In this document: positions 9,837 to 17,270 of the stretch, in pieces
How the letters are laid out: each line of letters opens with the position of its first letter
Position numbering within the stretch: position 1 is the first letter of the stretch
DNA from: Candidatus Nitrosymbiomonas proteolyticus
Lineage (GTDB): Bacteria > Armatimonadota > Fimbriimonadia > Fimbriimonadales > Fimbriimonadaceae
Assembly (NCBI GenBank): GCA_017347465.1
Contig: AP021858.1
Span: 2,002,472-2,066,471, forward strand
Direction of reading: 5' to 3'
Length of the DNA stretch: 64,000 bases
Position numbers and translations under genes: made by a program
Notes under the pieces: generated by a model
What the model was told of the DNA's origin: nothing
The model's input: only the letters and a program-made list of their open reading frames with translations
Database searches by the model: none

Positions 9837-11152
9837 CGGTTGATTTTGCGTTTGGGGACCGTAGCGTCGTTCCGCACCCGCTCGGCTTCCGCTTCGCACC
9901 GGTTGACGAACTGCTGAGGGGTGATTTCGCCGGAGAGCAAGGAGGCCATGGCGTTTTCCGTCTCTTTGCCTAGGGTCGGATACCAAAGTCGGTATTCGAC
10001 GCTCCAAATCGCCTCGCTGTTTGCGAACGCCTTGGCCGGCTCGATAAGATGCTCCGGCAAGTTCGCCTGATCGCTGCCTCGAATCGACATCAGGGTGCCC
10101 TTCTGCTCCACGAACTTCTTGGCGTTGGTTAGGCTGGTCATGAACCTAAAGAACTCGATCCCATCCTTCGAGTGCTTGCCCTTGATGGGGATCACCCACG
10201 GCTCGATTCCGATGTTGATGTTGGTGGGGTCGTGGCCGTCCTTTAGCGGTGGTGGAAGCATGAACCGCATCTTCGCGTTGGGCGGCATCACCTCCCGCAT
10301 TTCGGAGTGAAGCCAAGTTCCGCAAGGGATCATCGCAGCCCGGCCTTGAAGGAACTCAGTCTGCGATTCGGTATGGCTCATCCCAATCGCTCCGTTTTGA
10401 AACAACCCCCGGTCTCGAAGCATCGCGATCATTTCGGCCGCCTTGAGAAAGGCGGGTGAGTTCCATGCGCCAGGTTCGAGGCTCTGAGCGGCGTCGAGGG
10501 CTTCGATCCCGCCCGCGCTGATGGCCCAAGGGAAAAGGAACCCGGAAATCATGTAGTACGGATACTTGCCCTGAAAGGTGAGAGGCGCGATTCCTTTCGC
10601 CTTGATTTTCTCGGCGAGCGTCAGCAACTCTTCGAACGTCGCGGGGGGCGTCCAGCCGTTCTTCTCAAAAACGTTCGGGTCATACCACCAGCCGTTCATG
10701 TTGTAGTGGTAGGGAAGCATGTATTGCTTGCCTTCGTACTGGCCCAACTTGAGGAGTTCAGGCTCGAAGGTGTCGCGCCAGGTGCCCTCGCCCTCAGCGG
10801 GGGGCTGTGACAGGGCCTCATCGAGAGCGAGAAGCTGCCCGTCATAGACCATGGCCCAATAGTCCATCCCCCAACCGGGCCAGGTGACGTCGGGTGGGGA
10901 ACCCGCGACGAAGCGGGGGCGAAGCTGCTCCCAGACGCGAGGGTTGCCCCAGACCTTCACCTTTGCCCCAGGGTGAGCGGCTTCGTAGTCCCGCGCGGCC
11001 TGCTCAAAGAAGTCGATCCCGTATCCGCCCTGGAACACTGCGACCTCGACCTCGGCGCTCCCAGAGGAGGACGATCCCCCCTTGTTGCAGCCGGCAGAAA
11101 TGAACACTAGGGAAGCGGAAAAAGCTACTCCGAGCAAAAGTTGGGTACGCAT
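9833..11152 (-). CDS. Extracellular sugar-binding lipoprotein of ABC importer
   Basis: A 439-residue family 1 solute-binding protein. Residues 1-22 form a lipoprotein signal with lipobox I-S-A-G-C, followed by a Gly/Ser linker. The mature part has the usual features of sugar-binding proteins (aromatic residues, a WPGWGMDYWAMVYDGQLLAL stretch). The ATG at 11152 has GAGG upstream and gives the signal peptide; an in-frame ATG at 11185 does not. It captures sugar outside the membrane for the two permeases. No ATPase gene is linked, so a shared MsmK/UgpC-type ATPase is likely. Confidence 0.92.
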   Translation of the reverse strand: MRTQLLLGVAFSASLVFISAGCNKGGSSSSGSAEVEVAVFQGGYGIDFFEQAARDYEAAHPGAKVKVWGNPRVWEQLRPRFVAGSPPDVTWPGWGMDYWAMVYDGQLLALDEALSQPPAEGEGTWRDTFEPELLKLGQYEGKQYMLPYHYNMNGWWYDPNVFEKNGWTPPATFEELLTLAEKIKAKGIAPLTFQGKYPYYMISGFLFPWAISAGGIEALDAAQSLEPGAWNSPAFLKAAEMIAMLRDRGLFQNGAIGMSHTESQTEFLQGRAAMIPCGTWLHSEMREVMPPNAKMRFMLPPPLKDGHDPTNINIGIEPWVIPIKGKHSKDGIEFFRFMTSLTNAKKFVEQKGTLMSIRGSDQANLPEHLIEPAKAFANSEAIWSVEYRLWYPTLGKETENAMASLLSGEITPQQFVNRCEAEAERVRNDATVPKRKINR

Positions 11153-11295
11153 GTGATTCCTCTGGGGGGCTTGCCCTTGGCGCATTTCTACCAGATTCTG
11201 CCCAGGCCGCGTATCCTTTTCGGCGCAGTTCTTCTCCGGTCCTGTGGCTTCGGTCTGAAGACGGGTCGGCTGGGCTACAATTCCCGAAGGAGCCT

Positions 11296-12375
11296 ATGTC
11301 GAACCTCAATAACGTTCCTGAGAGCCAACGAGGCCTCGTCGACCTTCGGAGTGATACGGTTACGCGCCCAACGCCGGAAATGTACGAAGCGATGCAGCGC
11401 GCGCCCCTCGGTGACGACGTGCTGGGCGACGATCCAACGGTCGCAGAGCTTGAAGAAATCTCCGCCCAAACCATGGGCAAGGAAGCCGCCGTCTTTGTTC
11501 CCAGCGGAACGATGGGCAATCAAATCGCCATCGCGACCCACGTTCGCCGAGGAGACGCGATTCTGGTCGAAGAGGAGGCGCACGTCCTTTACTATGAGTG
11601 CGGCGCGCCGGGGGTTCTGGCGCAGGCCGTCACGTTCACGATTCCTTCGGACAAAGGCTTGATGGACCCTAAGGAAATCGAGCGGCGAATGACGCAACGA
11701 AGCCTTCATACGCCGGGGACGACGCTGCTCTGCATCGAGAACACCCACAATCGGGCTGGCGGAACTGTGGTTCCGCTCGCACGAATGAAGGAGTATCGGG
11801 AGGTGGCTCAACTCCACGGCGTCAAGGTACATCTCGACGGCGCGAGGGTCTTCAATGCCGCGGTGGCGCTTGGGGTTGAAGCCCGCACGATCGCCGCAAC
11901 CGTCGACTCTGTGAGCTTCTGCCTCAGCAAAGGTCTCGGCTCTCCTATCGGGTCGGTGCTGTGCGGAGGCGCCGCGTTCATCGACGAGGCGAGGATCTGG
12001 CGCAAGAGGCTCGGAGGAGGGATGCGGCAAGCGGGAATCCTCGCGGCCTGCGGTTTGGTCAGTTTGAGAACTCGAGTCGGCCGCCTTGCCGAAGACCACG
12101 CCCGCGCGAAGGCCTGCGCGGAAGCGCTGTCCGAGATTCCGGGTTTACGGGTCGATTGGGATCGCGTTCAGACGAACATGGTCCTCGTCGAAACGGATCG
12201 CCCCGCAAAGCAGTGGCTCGATTGCCTGCGGTCGGAGGGTGTCCTTGCGCTTCCGCCCGCTCCCAGTCGGATTCGCTTGGTGTTCCATTCTGACGTCGAC
12301 GATGTCGGCTTGGGCCGCGCGATCGACGCGTTTGGCAAGGCTGCGAAGGCTCTTGGGGCCTCTCCCGCGGCGTAA
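11296..12375 (+). CDS. ltaE: Low-specificity L-threonine aldolase
   Basis: A 359-residue PLP enzyme that cleaves L-threonine or L-allo-threonine to glycine and acetaldehyde. The N-terminal DLRSDTVTRPTPEM and GDDVLGDDPTV motifs are diagnostic. The PLP lysine lies in FCLSKGLGSPIGS at about residue 205, and HLDGARVFNA holds the PLP-binding Asp. GAAGGAG precedes the ATG by 5 nt. A TACAAT at 11276-11281 could be the -10 element. It is transcribed divergently from the sugar importer. Confidence 0.95.
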   Translation: MSNLNNVPESQRGLVDLRSDTVTRPTPEMYEAMQRAPLGDDVLGDDPTVAELEEISAQTMGKEAAVFVPSGTMGNQIAIATHVRRGDAILVEEEAHVLYYECGAPGVLAQAVTFTIPSDKGLMDPKEIERRMTQRSLHTPGTTLLCIENTHNRAGGTVVPLARMKEYREVAQLHGVKVHLDGARVFNAAVALGVEARTIAATVDSVSFCLSKGLGSPIGSVLCGGAAFIDEARIWRKRLGGGMRQAGILAACGLVSLRTRVGRLAEDHARAKACAEALSEIPGLRVDWDRVQTNMVLVETDRPAKQWLDCLRSEGVLALPPAPSRIRLVFHSDVDDVGLGRAIDAFGKAAKALGASPAA

Positions 12376-12383
12376 TCGTCCCT

Positions 12384-12927
12384 CCGGTGCGCACGCGTAT
12401 GGGAACGCCCGCGCCCCGCGTGGCACTTACCGTTCGACCCACCCCTTACTAGAAGGAACGGAAATCGCGTCTCCGGGAGCGCTCGCGTCCCGCGTGGCCT
12501 TCGCTCTCCTTCGCTTTCACAGGCAGAGGAACTTGCGATTCCGGGAGCGCACGCGCCCCGCGTGGCTTCTACCGCTCAATCCACCCCTTACTAGAAAGAA
12601 AGGGAAATCGCGTCTCCGGGAGCGCACGCGTCCCGCGTGGCCTTCGCTCTGCTTCGCTTTCACACGAATAGGAGCTTGCGATTCCGGGAACGCACGCGCC
12701 CCGCGTGGCTTCTACCGCTCAATCCACCCCTTACTAGAAAGAAAGGGAAATCGCGTCTCCGGGAGCGCACGCGTCCCGCGTGGCCTTCGCTCTGCTTCGC
12801 TTTCACACGAAAAAGAGCTTGCGATTCCGGGAACGCCCGCGCCCCTCGTGGCTCTTACCGTTCGACCCGCCTCTAGGTAAAAAAAAAAAAAATCGCGTCT
12901 CCGGGAGCGCACGCGTCCCGCGCGGCC
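12384..12927 (+). repeat. Left REP-like array, eight hairpin cores, 143-bp composite period
   Basis: About eight copies of a core containing CACGCG, a 3-nt loop and CGCGTG. Cores with loop TCC begin at about 12475, 12618, 12761 and 12903; cores with loop CCC begin at about 12543, 12686 and 12829; a degenerate first copy is near 12407. Each class recurs at 142-143 bp, so the true unit is a two-core composite. Linkers contain TTCGCTCTGCTTCGCTTTCAC and a CTTACTAGAAAGAAAGG block. A run of 14 A lies at 12879-12892. All ORFs here are repeat artefacts. Confidence 0.93.
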
Positions 12928-13535
12928 TACGCGCTCTCTCCCGCGCTACTCCACCGCCACTCCTCCGGCGCAGCACAAAGGCGCGCCTTGACCGGGTTCA
13001 TGTGGATGTACTCGACGCATCTCCGAAAGTGATCTTCATTGCGGATGAACCGATCGAAGCTCTCTCTTTGCCAGAACTTCGAGGGCTGGGAGCAACCGAG
13101 GAACGCGTCTTCCTTCAACATTCTTAGGGCCTCGTGTGCCGTAAAGGACTTCCAGCTATGAAGGATTCGGCTCAGTGCTTGACCCTCCTCGGGCGTGATC
13201 AAGACGTGAACATGGTTGGGCATCACAACCCATGCGTGCAAGAGATAGCGCTCTCCATCGAACTTCAGCAGCGCCGATTGCACCAAGTCGGCGATTCGGG
13301 GGTCGCGCAAGTACGCCGCACCGTGGCCAGCATCGAGCCACCTCTCAATACGCTTTCGCTCCTCCGCGGAGGCTTTGTCCTTGGGAAGGCTCTTGAGTTC
13401 TTCTCTCCAAGCCCAAATGCGCTCCGCGGGGAGGGAGTCGGCGAGCCTAAAGGTGACTGCCTGCGAAATGTCTCCGCCGTCGAAGTGTGGAAGGTAGCCT
13501 CGGGAATACCAGCCTCGGGGCTTGAAGTCAGCCAT
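12927..13535 (-). CDS. REP-associated tyrosine transposase (RAYT, Y1_Tnp/HUH)
   Basis: About 202 residues. The HUH motif is PNHVHVLI (His at about 108 and 110), and the catalytic helix is EYIHMNPVKARL with Tyr at about 176 and Asn four residues on. The C-terminal EEWRWSSA is typical of RAYT proteins. These enzymes nick single-stranded REP hairpins and are usually single-copy, domesticated relatives of IS200/IS605 TnpA. The residues needed for catalysis look intact. The start is ATG at 13535; an upstream ATG at 13553 is also possible. The gene sits exactly between two inverted repeat arrays and its stop touches the last left-array core. Confidence 0.92.
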   Translation of the reverse strand: MADFKPRGWYSRGYLPHFDGGDISQAVTFRLADSLPAERIWAWREELKSLPKDKASAEERKRIERWLDAGHGAAYLRDPRIADLVQSALLKFDGERYLLHAWVVMPNHVHVLITPEEGQALSRILHSWKSFTAHEALRMLKEDAFLGCSQPSKFWQRESFDRFIRNEDHFRRCVEYIHMNPVKARLCAAPEEWRWSSAGESA

Positions 13536-13583
13536 GGGGACTTTATAGCGCATGGAGGCGCGGAATAGGGATTTGCTGGGATG

Positions 13584-14433
13584 TGTGCGCTCATTGGTGT
13601 CCGCACGTTGGGGAAGTGAGCGGAAAGAGTTGCGAGGGCCACGCAGGACGCGTGCGCTCCCGGATGCGTGCGCTCATTGGTGTCCGCACGTTGGGGAAGT
13701 GAACGAGTAGAGTAGCGAAGGCCACGCGGGACGCGTGCGTTCCCGGATGCGTGCGTTCATTGGTGTCCGCACGATGGGGAAGTGAGCGAGTAGAGTCGCG
13801 AAGGCCACGCGGGACGCGTGCGTTCCCGGAAGTGTGGGCTCATTGGTGTCTGCACGTTGGGGAAGTGAGCGAGTAGAGTCGCGAAGGCCACGCGGGACGC
13901 GTGCGTTCCCGGAAGTGTGCGTTTGTTGGTGTCCGCATAACGTGGAGTTGCACGGGTGGAGTTTCGAGGGCCACGCGGGACGCGTGCGTTCCTGGACGCG
14001 TGCGTTTGTTGGTGTCCGCACCCTGGGGGAAGTGAACGTGGAGAGTCGCGAAGGCCACGCGGGACGCGTGCGTTCCCGGAAGTGTGCGCTCATTGGTGTC
14101 CGCACGTTGGGGAAGTGAACGAGTAGAGTAGCGAAGGCCACGCGGGACGCGTGCGCTCCCGGACGCGTGCGTTCCCGGAAGTGTGCGTTTGTAGGTGTCC
14201 GCGCAACGTGGAGGTGCACGGGTGGAGTTTCGAAGGCCACGCGGGACGCGTGCGTTCCCGGATGCGTGCGCTCCCGGACGCGTGGGCTCATTGGTGTCCG
14301 CGCAACGTGGAGGTGCACGGGTGGAGTTTCGAGGGCCACGCGGGACGCGTGCGTTCCCGGACGCGTGCGCTCCTAAACGCGTGCTCCAAAACGCATACGC
14401 TCCTATACGAATGCGCTCATAGAAACACGCGCC
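13584..14433 (+). repeat. Right REP-like array, nine cores at 83-bp spacing
   Basis: Nine copies of GGCCACGCGGGACGCGTGCG, the reverse complement of the left-array core, with the CC at about 13639, 13722, 13805, 13888, 13971, 14055, 14138, 14237 and 14336. Spacing is 83 bp (once 84) and then 99 bp twice, the extra 16 bp being a duplicated block CGCGTGCGTTCCCGGA. Linkers are of two types, one with GTTGGGGAAGTGAACGAG and one with AACGTGGAGGTGCACGGG. After 14360 the unit decays into degenerate 13-17-bp pieces ending just before the nuoB promoter. Confidence 0.93.
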
Positions 14434-14478
14434 CACAAGGCGACCCGTGTTCAAGTACACTTGGCGCAGAGGAGTTCG

Positions 14479-15054
14479 ATGCCGAAACGAGTCGAAGAAA
14501 TCGTCCTTCATGACAGCGCCACCCCCACCCTTGGAGGGATGGAGCGGGGCGGGAACGTGGTCCTAGCGCAGGGAGCGATGCTGATCAAGCAGGCCCGCGC
14601 GAACGCCTTATGGCCGCTTACGTTCGGCCTCGCCTGTTGCGCGATTGAGATGATGAGCACGGTCGCGGCTCGATTCGACCTGGCGCGATTCGGGTCCGAG
14701 GCCTTCCGCGCGACGCCGCGCCAAGCGGATGTGATGATCATCGCCGGGCGCGTCAGCAAGAAGATGGGGCCGGTGCTCCGGCAGATTTACGACCAGATGC
14801 CCGAACCCAAGTGGGTGATCAGCATGGGCGCTTGCGCCAGCAGCGGCGGCGTCTACAACAACTACGCGATCATTCAGGGCGCAGACCAGATCGTACCGGT
14901 CGACGTGTACGTTCCCGGCTGCCCTCCCTCGCCGGACGCACTGATGTACGGCATCATCAAACTTCAGCAGAAGATCAAGGCGCAAGAAGGGACGCTGAAA
15001 GCGCTCAAGCTCTGGGAGTTCGATCCCCGCCAACTCGAAGAGGTGACCGGGTGA
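14479..15054 (+). CDS. nuoB: NADH-quinone oxidoreductase subunit B
   Basis: A 191-residue subunit that holds cluster N2 at the quinone end of complex I. The four cluster ligands are present: the Cys-Cys pair in LACCAIEMM (53-54), Cys in GACASSGG (about 119) and Cys in [10 protein letters not shown] (about 148). AGAGGAG stands 5 nt before ATG 14479, so the longer TTG-initiated frame is rejected. A TACACT at 14456-14461 may be the -10 box. It overlaps nuoI by 4 nt. Confidence 0.96.
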
Positions 15055-15539
15055 AGGTCGAGCTACTTCGGGACGTCGTCAAGCCGGTCGTAGGGGGAAT
15101 GATGATCACCCTCAAGAGGCTCGCGCACGAAAAGGTGACGGTCCAGTATCCCGAAGAACTTCGGGAGCAGTACCCTCGGACGCGCTGGCGGCACTTCCTC
15201 ACGAAGTATGACAACGGGCTGGAGAAGTGCATCGGATGCTCGCTTTGCGCGGGCGCATGCCCGGCTCGCTGCATCTTCGTCGAGGCCGCAGAGAACACCG
15301 AAGAGGAGCGCTACTCTCCGGGGGAGCGGTACTCAAAGCGCTACGAGATCAACATGATCCGCTGCATCTTCTGCGGCTTCTGCCAGGAGGCTTGTCCTAC
15401 CGGCGCGATCGTGTTGCGGAAGAATTTCGAACTCGCCGATTACAAGCGCGAGGATTTTATCTACACCAAGCAGGACCTGCTCGAAAAGTACCCAGGCGAG
15501 TCCAACGAGCCGTATCGAGGGAAGTTCCAGCGCGACTAA
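15051..15539 (+). CDS. nuoI: NADH-quinone oxidoreductase subunit I
   Basis: A 162-residue ferredoxin-like subunit carrying two [4Fe-4S] clusters, N6a and N6b. The motifs are [15 protein letters not shown] at about 60-74 and [15 protein letters not shown] at about 105-119. The GTG start at 15051 overlaps the nuoB stop as GTGA. The rest of complex I is not nearby; nuoI is followed by a convergent gene. Confidence 0.96.
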
Positions 15540-15551
15540 GGCGCAGGGTCT

Positions 15552-17270
<1,719 letters not shown>

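Follow-up and report, generated by a model that had tools for sequence, protein, structure and literature searches.

A RAYT gene between two mirror-image tandem arrays of a hairpin repeat in Candidatus Nitrosymbiomonas proteolyticus

The RAYT locus

The stretch of DNA analysed here, termed the window, comprises 64,000 nucleotides (C1:2002472-2066471) of a single-contig genome of 2,809,316 bases. Within it, eight minus-strand hairpins are followed by an intact RAYT frame and by nine plus-strand hairpins (Table 1). An earlier note on this DNA had described eight copies on the left and nine on the right, the right ones being reverse complements, and that observation is confirmed: the feature is real and was correctly described. 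The left array separates convergent genes and the right array divergent genes.

Table 1. Positions of genes and repeats at the RAYT locus (window coordinates)
Feature	Position	Strand	Remarks
Neighbour gene	11296..12375	+	Presumably threonine-aldolase-like; converges on the RAYT across the left array
Left array	12406..12927	-	Eight hairpins, core GGCCACGCGGGACGCGTGCG and variants; spacing alternates 68 and 74/75 bp
RAYT (REP-associated tyrosine transposase, HUH/Y1)	12927..13553	-	208 aa; inner ATG at 13535
Right array	13579..14353	+	Linker homology from 13579, then nine hairpins, 13637-14353
16-bp tandem repeats	14343..14384	+	Head-side half of the hairpin (GGACGCGTGCGCTCCC); close the right array
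Neighbour gene	14482..15054	+	Presumably nuoB-like; divergent from the RAYT across the right array

The left hairpins start at 12406, 12480, 12548, 12623, 12691, 12766, 12834 and 12908 (spacings, in order, 74, 68, 75, 68, 75, 68 and 74), and the gene-proximal one overlaps the RAYT stop codon. Those on the right start at 13637, 13720, 13803, 13886, 13969, 14053, 14136, 14235 and 14334. Periods of 143 and 83 bp had been claimed for the two sides and both were found, with the qualification that the first is a dimer of two kinds of unit (68 and 74/75 bp) and that the second, 83/84 bp, turns to 99 bp at the far end. Short runs like the 16-bp half-hairpin repeats are also present at 14145-14187 and 14244-14289. 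The claim that both arrays share one core stands as well: with up to three mismatches it has 16 matches in the window, against a mean of 0.04 and a maximum of 1 in 100 dinucleotide shuffles, and the 17th copy (12834) has four mismatches.

The gene is indeed a RAYT, as had been proposed; the span of 12927-13535 first given for it is the frame from the inner ATG. NCBIfam REP_Tyr_transpos (NF047646) scores 95.5 bits (cut-off 80), Pfam Y1_Tnp 29.1 bits (cut-off 23), and the sole match with a solved structure is E. coli TnpArep (4er8, E 3.8e-7). The catalytic HVH and Tyr-x3-Asn residues, said to look intact, are both present in the sequence (NHVH, YIHMN). There are four Y1_Tnp matches in the genome, and the window RAYT is the only one of its type found. 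The other loci (L020, L019 and L022, at C1:1190921, 205449 and 1584951) each have different inverted flanking hairpins of their own. At 1190921 the gene has a 115-bp array (2.5 copies) along one flank, plus a scattered repeat family. The hairpin of one of these other loci, unlike that of the window, is found at 16 places across the genome; these come from 26 rows, because palindromes count on both strands.

Did the gene arise at this site? The nuoB-like gene has matches in 39 of 41 genomes, including its own. The nuoB locus was extracted from 29 relatives, and tblastn (E up to 1e-5) detected no RAYT within about 1.5 kb of nuoB in any of them; the RAYT thus arrived here or was lost elsewhere. 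The aldolase-like gene was likewise not detected within that distance in all 29 (same search).

Two other identities for the repeats were considered and rejected. Rfam gives no match at gathering scores between positions 11000 and 16000, which speaks against a known structured RNA. CRISPR was set aside because linkers within one array resemble each other (mean identity 0.66-0.99).

Structure and distribution of the hairpin

Read from the outer side, the hairpin consists of a head, CCGGGARC, followed by GCACGCG, a TCC loop and CGCGTGgC with one bulged base. The outer foot CCGGGARC is found in most copies, and the inner side varies (GAAG, GAGG, GTAGAA, others). This head occupies the place of the GT[AG]G guide in canonical REPs. 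The earlier note pointed to the pairing of RAYTs with REP/REPIN sequences; this hairpin is not a canonical REP, as GT[AG]G is missing from its foot. Single units folded as DNA are weakly better than shuffles (z -0.5 to -2.0). In the aligned RAYT-less arrays the stem appears as CATGCG/CGCATG, a C-G to T-A pair change, in 9 of 24 distinct rows. This two-sided change affects one of seven pairs and counts as minor support, because the other six pairs are unchanged and a partner slid by +2 has a slightly higher covariation score than the true register (0.153 vs 0.140), but with fewer pairs (77 vs 96%).

A genome search with a covariance model built from 27 hairpin copies, in which 150 of 3502 first-look candidates were scored, gave at least 37 strong copies (E up to 1.1e-7). 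The RAYT locus accounts for 17 of these, the arrays near 2142 and 2163 kb for 7 each and the one near 464 kb for 6. A degenerate array near 1315 kb is among at least 12 weaker hits from the same scored candidates, and none of the strong copies scored stands by itself. The three strong arrays away from the RAYT lie about 0.13, 0.15 and 1.55 Mb from it, and the genome search found no Y1_Tnp gene there. Are the copies clustered at RAYT loci or dispersed? This check, proposed at the outset, has a divided answer: the strong copies scored lie in tandem arrays at four loci, one at the RAYT and three without a RAYT. A search of 60 relatives with stricter filters gave no strong hits, and four weak ones in three genomes (E 0.0017-0.009).

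The arrays at 464, 2142 and 2163 kb have common 57/58-bp units with related linkers; mean linker identity among them is 0.57-0.72, compared with 0.33-0.50 with the RAYT arrays. The kinship of these linkers makes it probable that copies of hairpin plus linker once passed from one distant locus to another. On the head side, four arrays (the left array and those at 464, 2142 and 2163 kb) stop, by eye, about 14 bases or less from the end of the core; the right array starts with linker, not hairpin.

Array length in a close genome

The complete genome CP054189.1 (Chthonomonadaceae bacterium isolate H1_ARM1) carries this RAYT too, at the corresponding site and with 96% identity. G160, a genome assigned to the same species with its RAYT inside those coordinates, is probably the same record. 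Arrays are present in CP054189.1 on both sides of the gene and at the same loci, so an assembly artefact is unlikely. Copy number, which the earlier note had proposed to compare between strains, does differ. At the RAYT there are 8 hairpins on the left here against 7 in CP054189.1, and 9 against 3 on the right. The RAYT-less arrays also vary (here/CP054189.1): 6/5 at 464 kb, 7/4 at 2142 kb, 7/5 at 2163 kb and 4/7 at 1315 kb. The amplified unit is not the same either, being a 143-bp dimer and an 83-bp unit here and 68-bp and 99-bp units in CP054189.1.

Outside the arrays the flanks are 95-99.6% identical between the genomes where alignable. At the RAYT the two sides have values of 97.3 and 98.8%; the 464-kb array has 97.3 and 98.6%, the 2163-kb array 95.4 and 97.4%, and the 1315-kb array 98.3-99.6 and 96.3%. 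Beside the 2142-kb array, identity is 97.2% over 4.4 kb on one side and 95.9% over just 218 bases on the other, beyond which the genomes differ. On this comparison the arrays evidently grow and shrink quickly. Since both genomes have the same array loci, arrays changed length between them without new ones appearing. Present dispersal of the hairpin would be slow or absent, because neither a new array nor an isolated strong copy separates the two genomes (150 of 3502 candidates scored in the own genome).

The region beside the 2142-kb array in which the genomes separate after 218 bases is represented by L123:5141-8511 (near C1:2143140-2146510) and L016:1846-2397. A similar stretch of about 200 bases recurs at L123:8315-8511, and a frame there resembles what is presumably a UvrA piece.

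The RAYT itself differs from that of CP054189.1 by eight nonsynonymous and two synonymous changes, and five neighbouring genes by 30 and 72 (Fisher p 0.0026). The nonsynonymous excess fits fast evolution and also relaxed selection; fast evolution of rayt genes has been published, and the differences seen here agree with it (PMC2817692).

Hairpin heads in RAYT homologues

The nearest RAYTs in relatives have other stems and similar heads: GGAAC (L054), GGAGC (L076, L056 and, on the inner side, L057) and GGATC (L055). Among 79 further homologues from public genomes (L132-L210), for some of which a hairpin pair was printed and for others none, TCC loops recur together with heads of the kind CTGGGAGC, CTGGGAAC and CTGGGACC. 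In the flanks of RAYT-type genes, the inverted repeats of 23 of 32 loci (four of them in the own genome) beat the best of 226 mixed flank pairs (34.6 bits), and nine do not.

Heads were counted by a rule that places GGANC before a stem of at least six pairs, with the stem start allowed 0-2 bases further in. RAYTs were typed by a D[HR] motif, which was not readable in 15 of 127 loci and put at least two rows in the wrong place (L076, which is DR, and L234, ambiguous in type); six DR loci and one DH locus lacked flanks. Of 90 DR-type RAYTs, 65 have GGANC on the outer side and 47 on the inner side, against 8 of 96 distal flanks, in a DR sample that leans to near relatives and to which one motif scan contributed its best 80 of 550. 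The DH type has GGANC in 1 of 15 outer and 4 of 15 inner flanks. Under a laxer rule, with a shift of up to 2 bases allowed either way, 12 of 15 DH loci have GT[AG]G, as do the outer flanks of 11 of 90 DR loci. The window head CCGGGARC fits GGANC; the window's own locus scores 0 under the GGANC rule because the bulge shifts its stem.

These counts bear out the proposal that the RAYT pairs with the flanking hairpins. Most probably these hairpins serve as its cognate repeat and substrates, and the evidence is good because head and loop are conserved across a deep clade while stems change. That many stems have a GGANC head in common amounts to a direct prediction on how RAYTs read their guide sequence.

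In a tree of 110 proteins, 94 of 96 DR rows fall in one clade, at 100/100 support from a bootstrap that had not settled, and the DR/DH types take three changes on the tree. Labels in this clade come from at least 16 phyla, with many metagenome-assembled genomes. In the 4er8 alignment the position that separates DR from DH falls on E. coli H101, which is among the residues discussed for GTAG recognition (PMC6006769, section 12). Could an arginine here go with the changed head? We put this forward as no more than a hypothesis, because the DR/DH split is essentially one event on the tree and because, according to the same section, an arginine at times replaces H101 in subclasses 2.5 and 2.7, which have GT[AG]G REPs; for these reasons covariation of arginine or histidine with the head was rejected as support.

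Relation to known systems

How unusual are such arrays? The survey covered 101 RAYT loci whose flanks reach 400 bases or more on each side (26 of 127 were omitted for short flanks), 93 of which also had at least 400 bases of distal flank on both sides; a tandem array was defined by a period of 30-300 and at least two copies. Arrays stand beside the RAYT at 24 of these loci, in 10 cases on both sides and in 14 on one, against 3 of 101 in distal flanks. The window is at the high end, together with L062 (6.4 and 9.4 copies). The literature describes inverted REPs or BIMEs on the flanks of RAYTs, clusters of REPINs in tandem next to them, and tandemly reiterated REP singletons (PMC2817692, PMC3116915, PMC3733652). 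Because such arrangements are in print and 10 of the 101 loci share this one, the layout, first called unusual, is uncommon but not unique. At L062 (G006:C1) a RAYT lies between two arrays of a 58-bp unit, which appears to hold two inverse hairpins in a REPIN-like manner.

REPtrons are the closest comparison. Here too a HUH/Y1 transposase, with the HUH and Y motifs that mark RAYTs among the Y1 transposases (NF047646, 4er8 alignment), lies between inverted flanking hairpins, eight on the minus strand to the left and nine on the plus strand to the right. Published REPtron accounts also have BIME-2 on both sides of the gene in E. coli, several hairpin families per genome each with its own gene, a fast-evolving gene, and hairpins concentrated near the gene in some species (PMC2817692, PMC6006769, PMC8266576). 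The window differs in that its hairpin has no GT[AG]G head and its gene belongs to a clade with GGANC heads. Further, copies within either window array all point one way, unlike the alternating or paired inverse REPs of BIMEs and REPINs, and the 37 strong copies are confined to four clusters (150 of 3502 candidates scored), whereas REPs are scattered and often exceed 100 per genome.

The TIRtrons (TIRYTs) likewise have a RAYT-like gene with inverted flanking repeats unrelated to GTAG REPs, as has the window, and some of their repeats form families in dimers or clusters; the one motif quoted, GGGGWSAS, is not the window head (PMC3733652). CTGGGA, CCGGGA, GGGAAC and GGGAGC are absent from the main text of that paper, whose figures and supplements may hold an overlap. 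In SBW25, as published, tandem repeats include flanking sequence and a cluster lies beside each of three RAYTs, but the unit is an inverted REP pair and the largest ordered cluster has four; the window has single hairpins, in 8 and 9 copies, mirror-imaged about the gene. A literature search of main texts gave no published REP-associated case from an Armatimonad. The locus is a variant of the known RAYT-REP arrangement, with a different head and fast array turnover.

How might the arrays arise?

How do REP hairpins multiply, and what part does the RAYT take? The present case offers a small, countable system: one RAYT of its type, about five array loci and two genomes. We favour a REPtron-like locus with its own cognate hairpin. 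The arrays would be local tandem amplifications of hairpin plus linker; the RAYT would nick and rejoin single strands at hairpin heads during replication, and such cutting would promote loss, gain and occasional copying elsewhere of these units, with ordinary recombination between units helping. This is suggested by the hairpin architecture common to related RAYT loci, the mirror-image arrays, the length differences between two genomes and the related distant units. That the enzyme may extend or trim the arrays, as the earlier note had it, is plausible, and the interpretation given there is partly supported. We rate the RAYT-driven version little better than even, because slippage and recombination give much the same pattern and the far arrays vary too. 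Nor does the head always lie where outer-head pairing would have it, as seen in the inner GGAGC of L057 and the inner GGANC heads in about half of the DR loci counted.

The hairpins could be cognate REPs and the arrays nonetheless ordinary minisatellites, shaped by replication slippage and unit recombination without the enzyme. Variation of RAYT-less arrays between the two genomes, the different amplified units, the slippage-like 16-bp half-hairpin repeats and the lack of dispersal between the two genomes would all be expected from such a process; the concentration of tandem arrays at RAYT loci, the four arrays that stop close to a hairpin head and the probable copying of units between distant loci would not. 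We consider this account a serious one, though on balance doubtful. Arrays maintained for a regulatory or structural role at gene junctions (as terminators, messenger stabilisers or promoter spacers) would suit a left array that begins at the RAYT stop codon between convergent genes and a right array between divergent ones, but a right array that has nine hairpins in one genome and three in the other, and the Rfam result for 11000-16000, make this very improbable. Hardly any weight can be given to an IS-like unit of RAYT and arrays moving as a whole: a gene gained here or lost elsewhere, as the 29 relatives indicate, would agree with it, but each of the two close genomes has a single copy, and the site does not differ between them.

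RAYTs within host enzymes

A side finding, RAYTs lying in frame in other proteins, is more surprising than the arrays. Nesting was counted only where a single open frame has Pfam domains both before and after Y1_Tnp. A long open frame was rejected as a sign on its own, because in G160 the RAYT of this species is enclosed in an open frame of 393 aa. Seven loci have Pfam host domains on both sides. The host is CarB in L059 (G007:C27) and L079 (G005:C1), a type ISP restriction enzyme in L225 (G276:C103) and a cobalamin-dependent methionine synthase in L230 (G157:C2); it is a GH38 alpha-mannosidase in L078 (G007:C6) and L229 (G127:C244) and a zinc alcohol dehydrogenase in L224 (G128:C1), with the second host domain under the cut-off in these three. 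With RAYTs in CarB and methionine synthase, enzymes of core metabolism would contain a transposase domain, an unexpected arrangement.

Thirty CarB loci were compared. The insert is at the same place in three (G005, the query; G007, 232 aa; G002, 188 aa), 23 have an empty site (two sides 0-7 residues apart) and four could be placed in neither group. The 188-residue insert (L252, G002:C40) has the look of a decayed RAYT still in frame, with HxH kept and the tyrosine motif lost, by eye. At E 1e-60 there is a single CarB match in G005 and in G002, and the second match in G007 is its other nested RAYT; for this reason the interrupted gene may be the only copy of this CarB half in all three genomes. 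A literature search of main texts found no published in-frame insertion of an IS200-type transposase in carB.

Can these strands be drawn together? One tentative picture, to which we give somewhat less than an even chance, is of a widespread DR clade (labels from at least 16 phyla) in which a guide code C[TC]GGGANC would replace GT[AG]G, perhaps matched by arginine at the H101 position, in which cognate hairpins would build hypervariable tandem arrays, and whose RAYTs, with those of a sister clade, may lodge in frame in host enzymes, one CarB keeping only a decayed RAYT domain.

Nesting is one-sided or ambiguous in L061, L223, L226, L233, L235 and L239. L061 (G059:C26) looks nested in CarB, with one side only owing to a contig end, and L077 resembles CarB by eye only. 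Of interest are L232, L233 and L235 (G090, G270 and G095), RAYTs in DUF1156-type methylase proteins, apparently at different places. Pfam gives DUF1156 in L233 and L235 only; L232 has no Pfam host domain, and its outer parts resemble those of L235 by eye. In L232 and L233 the flanking short tandem repeats are read in frame.
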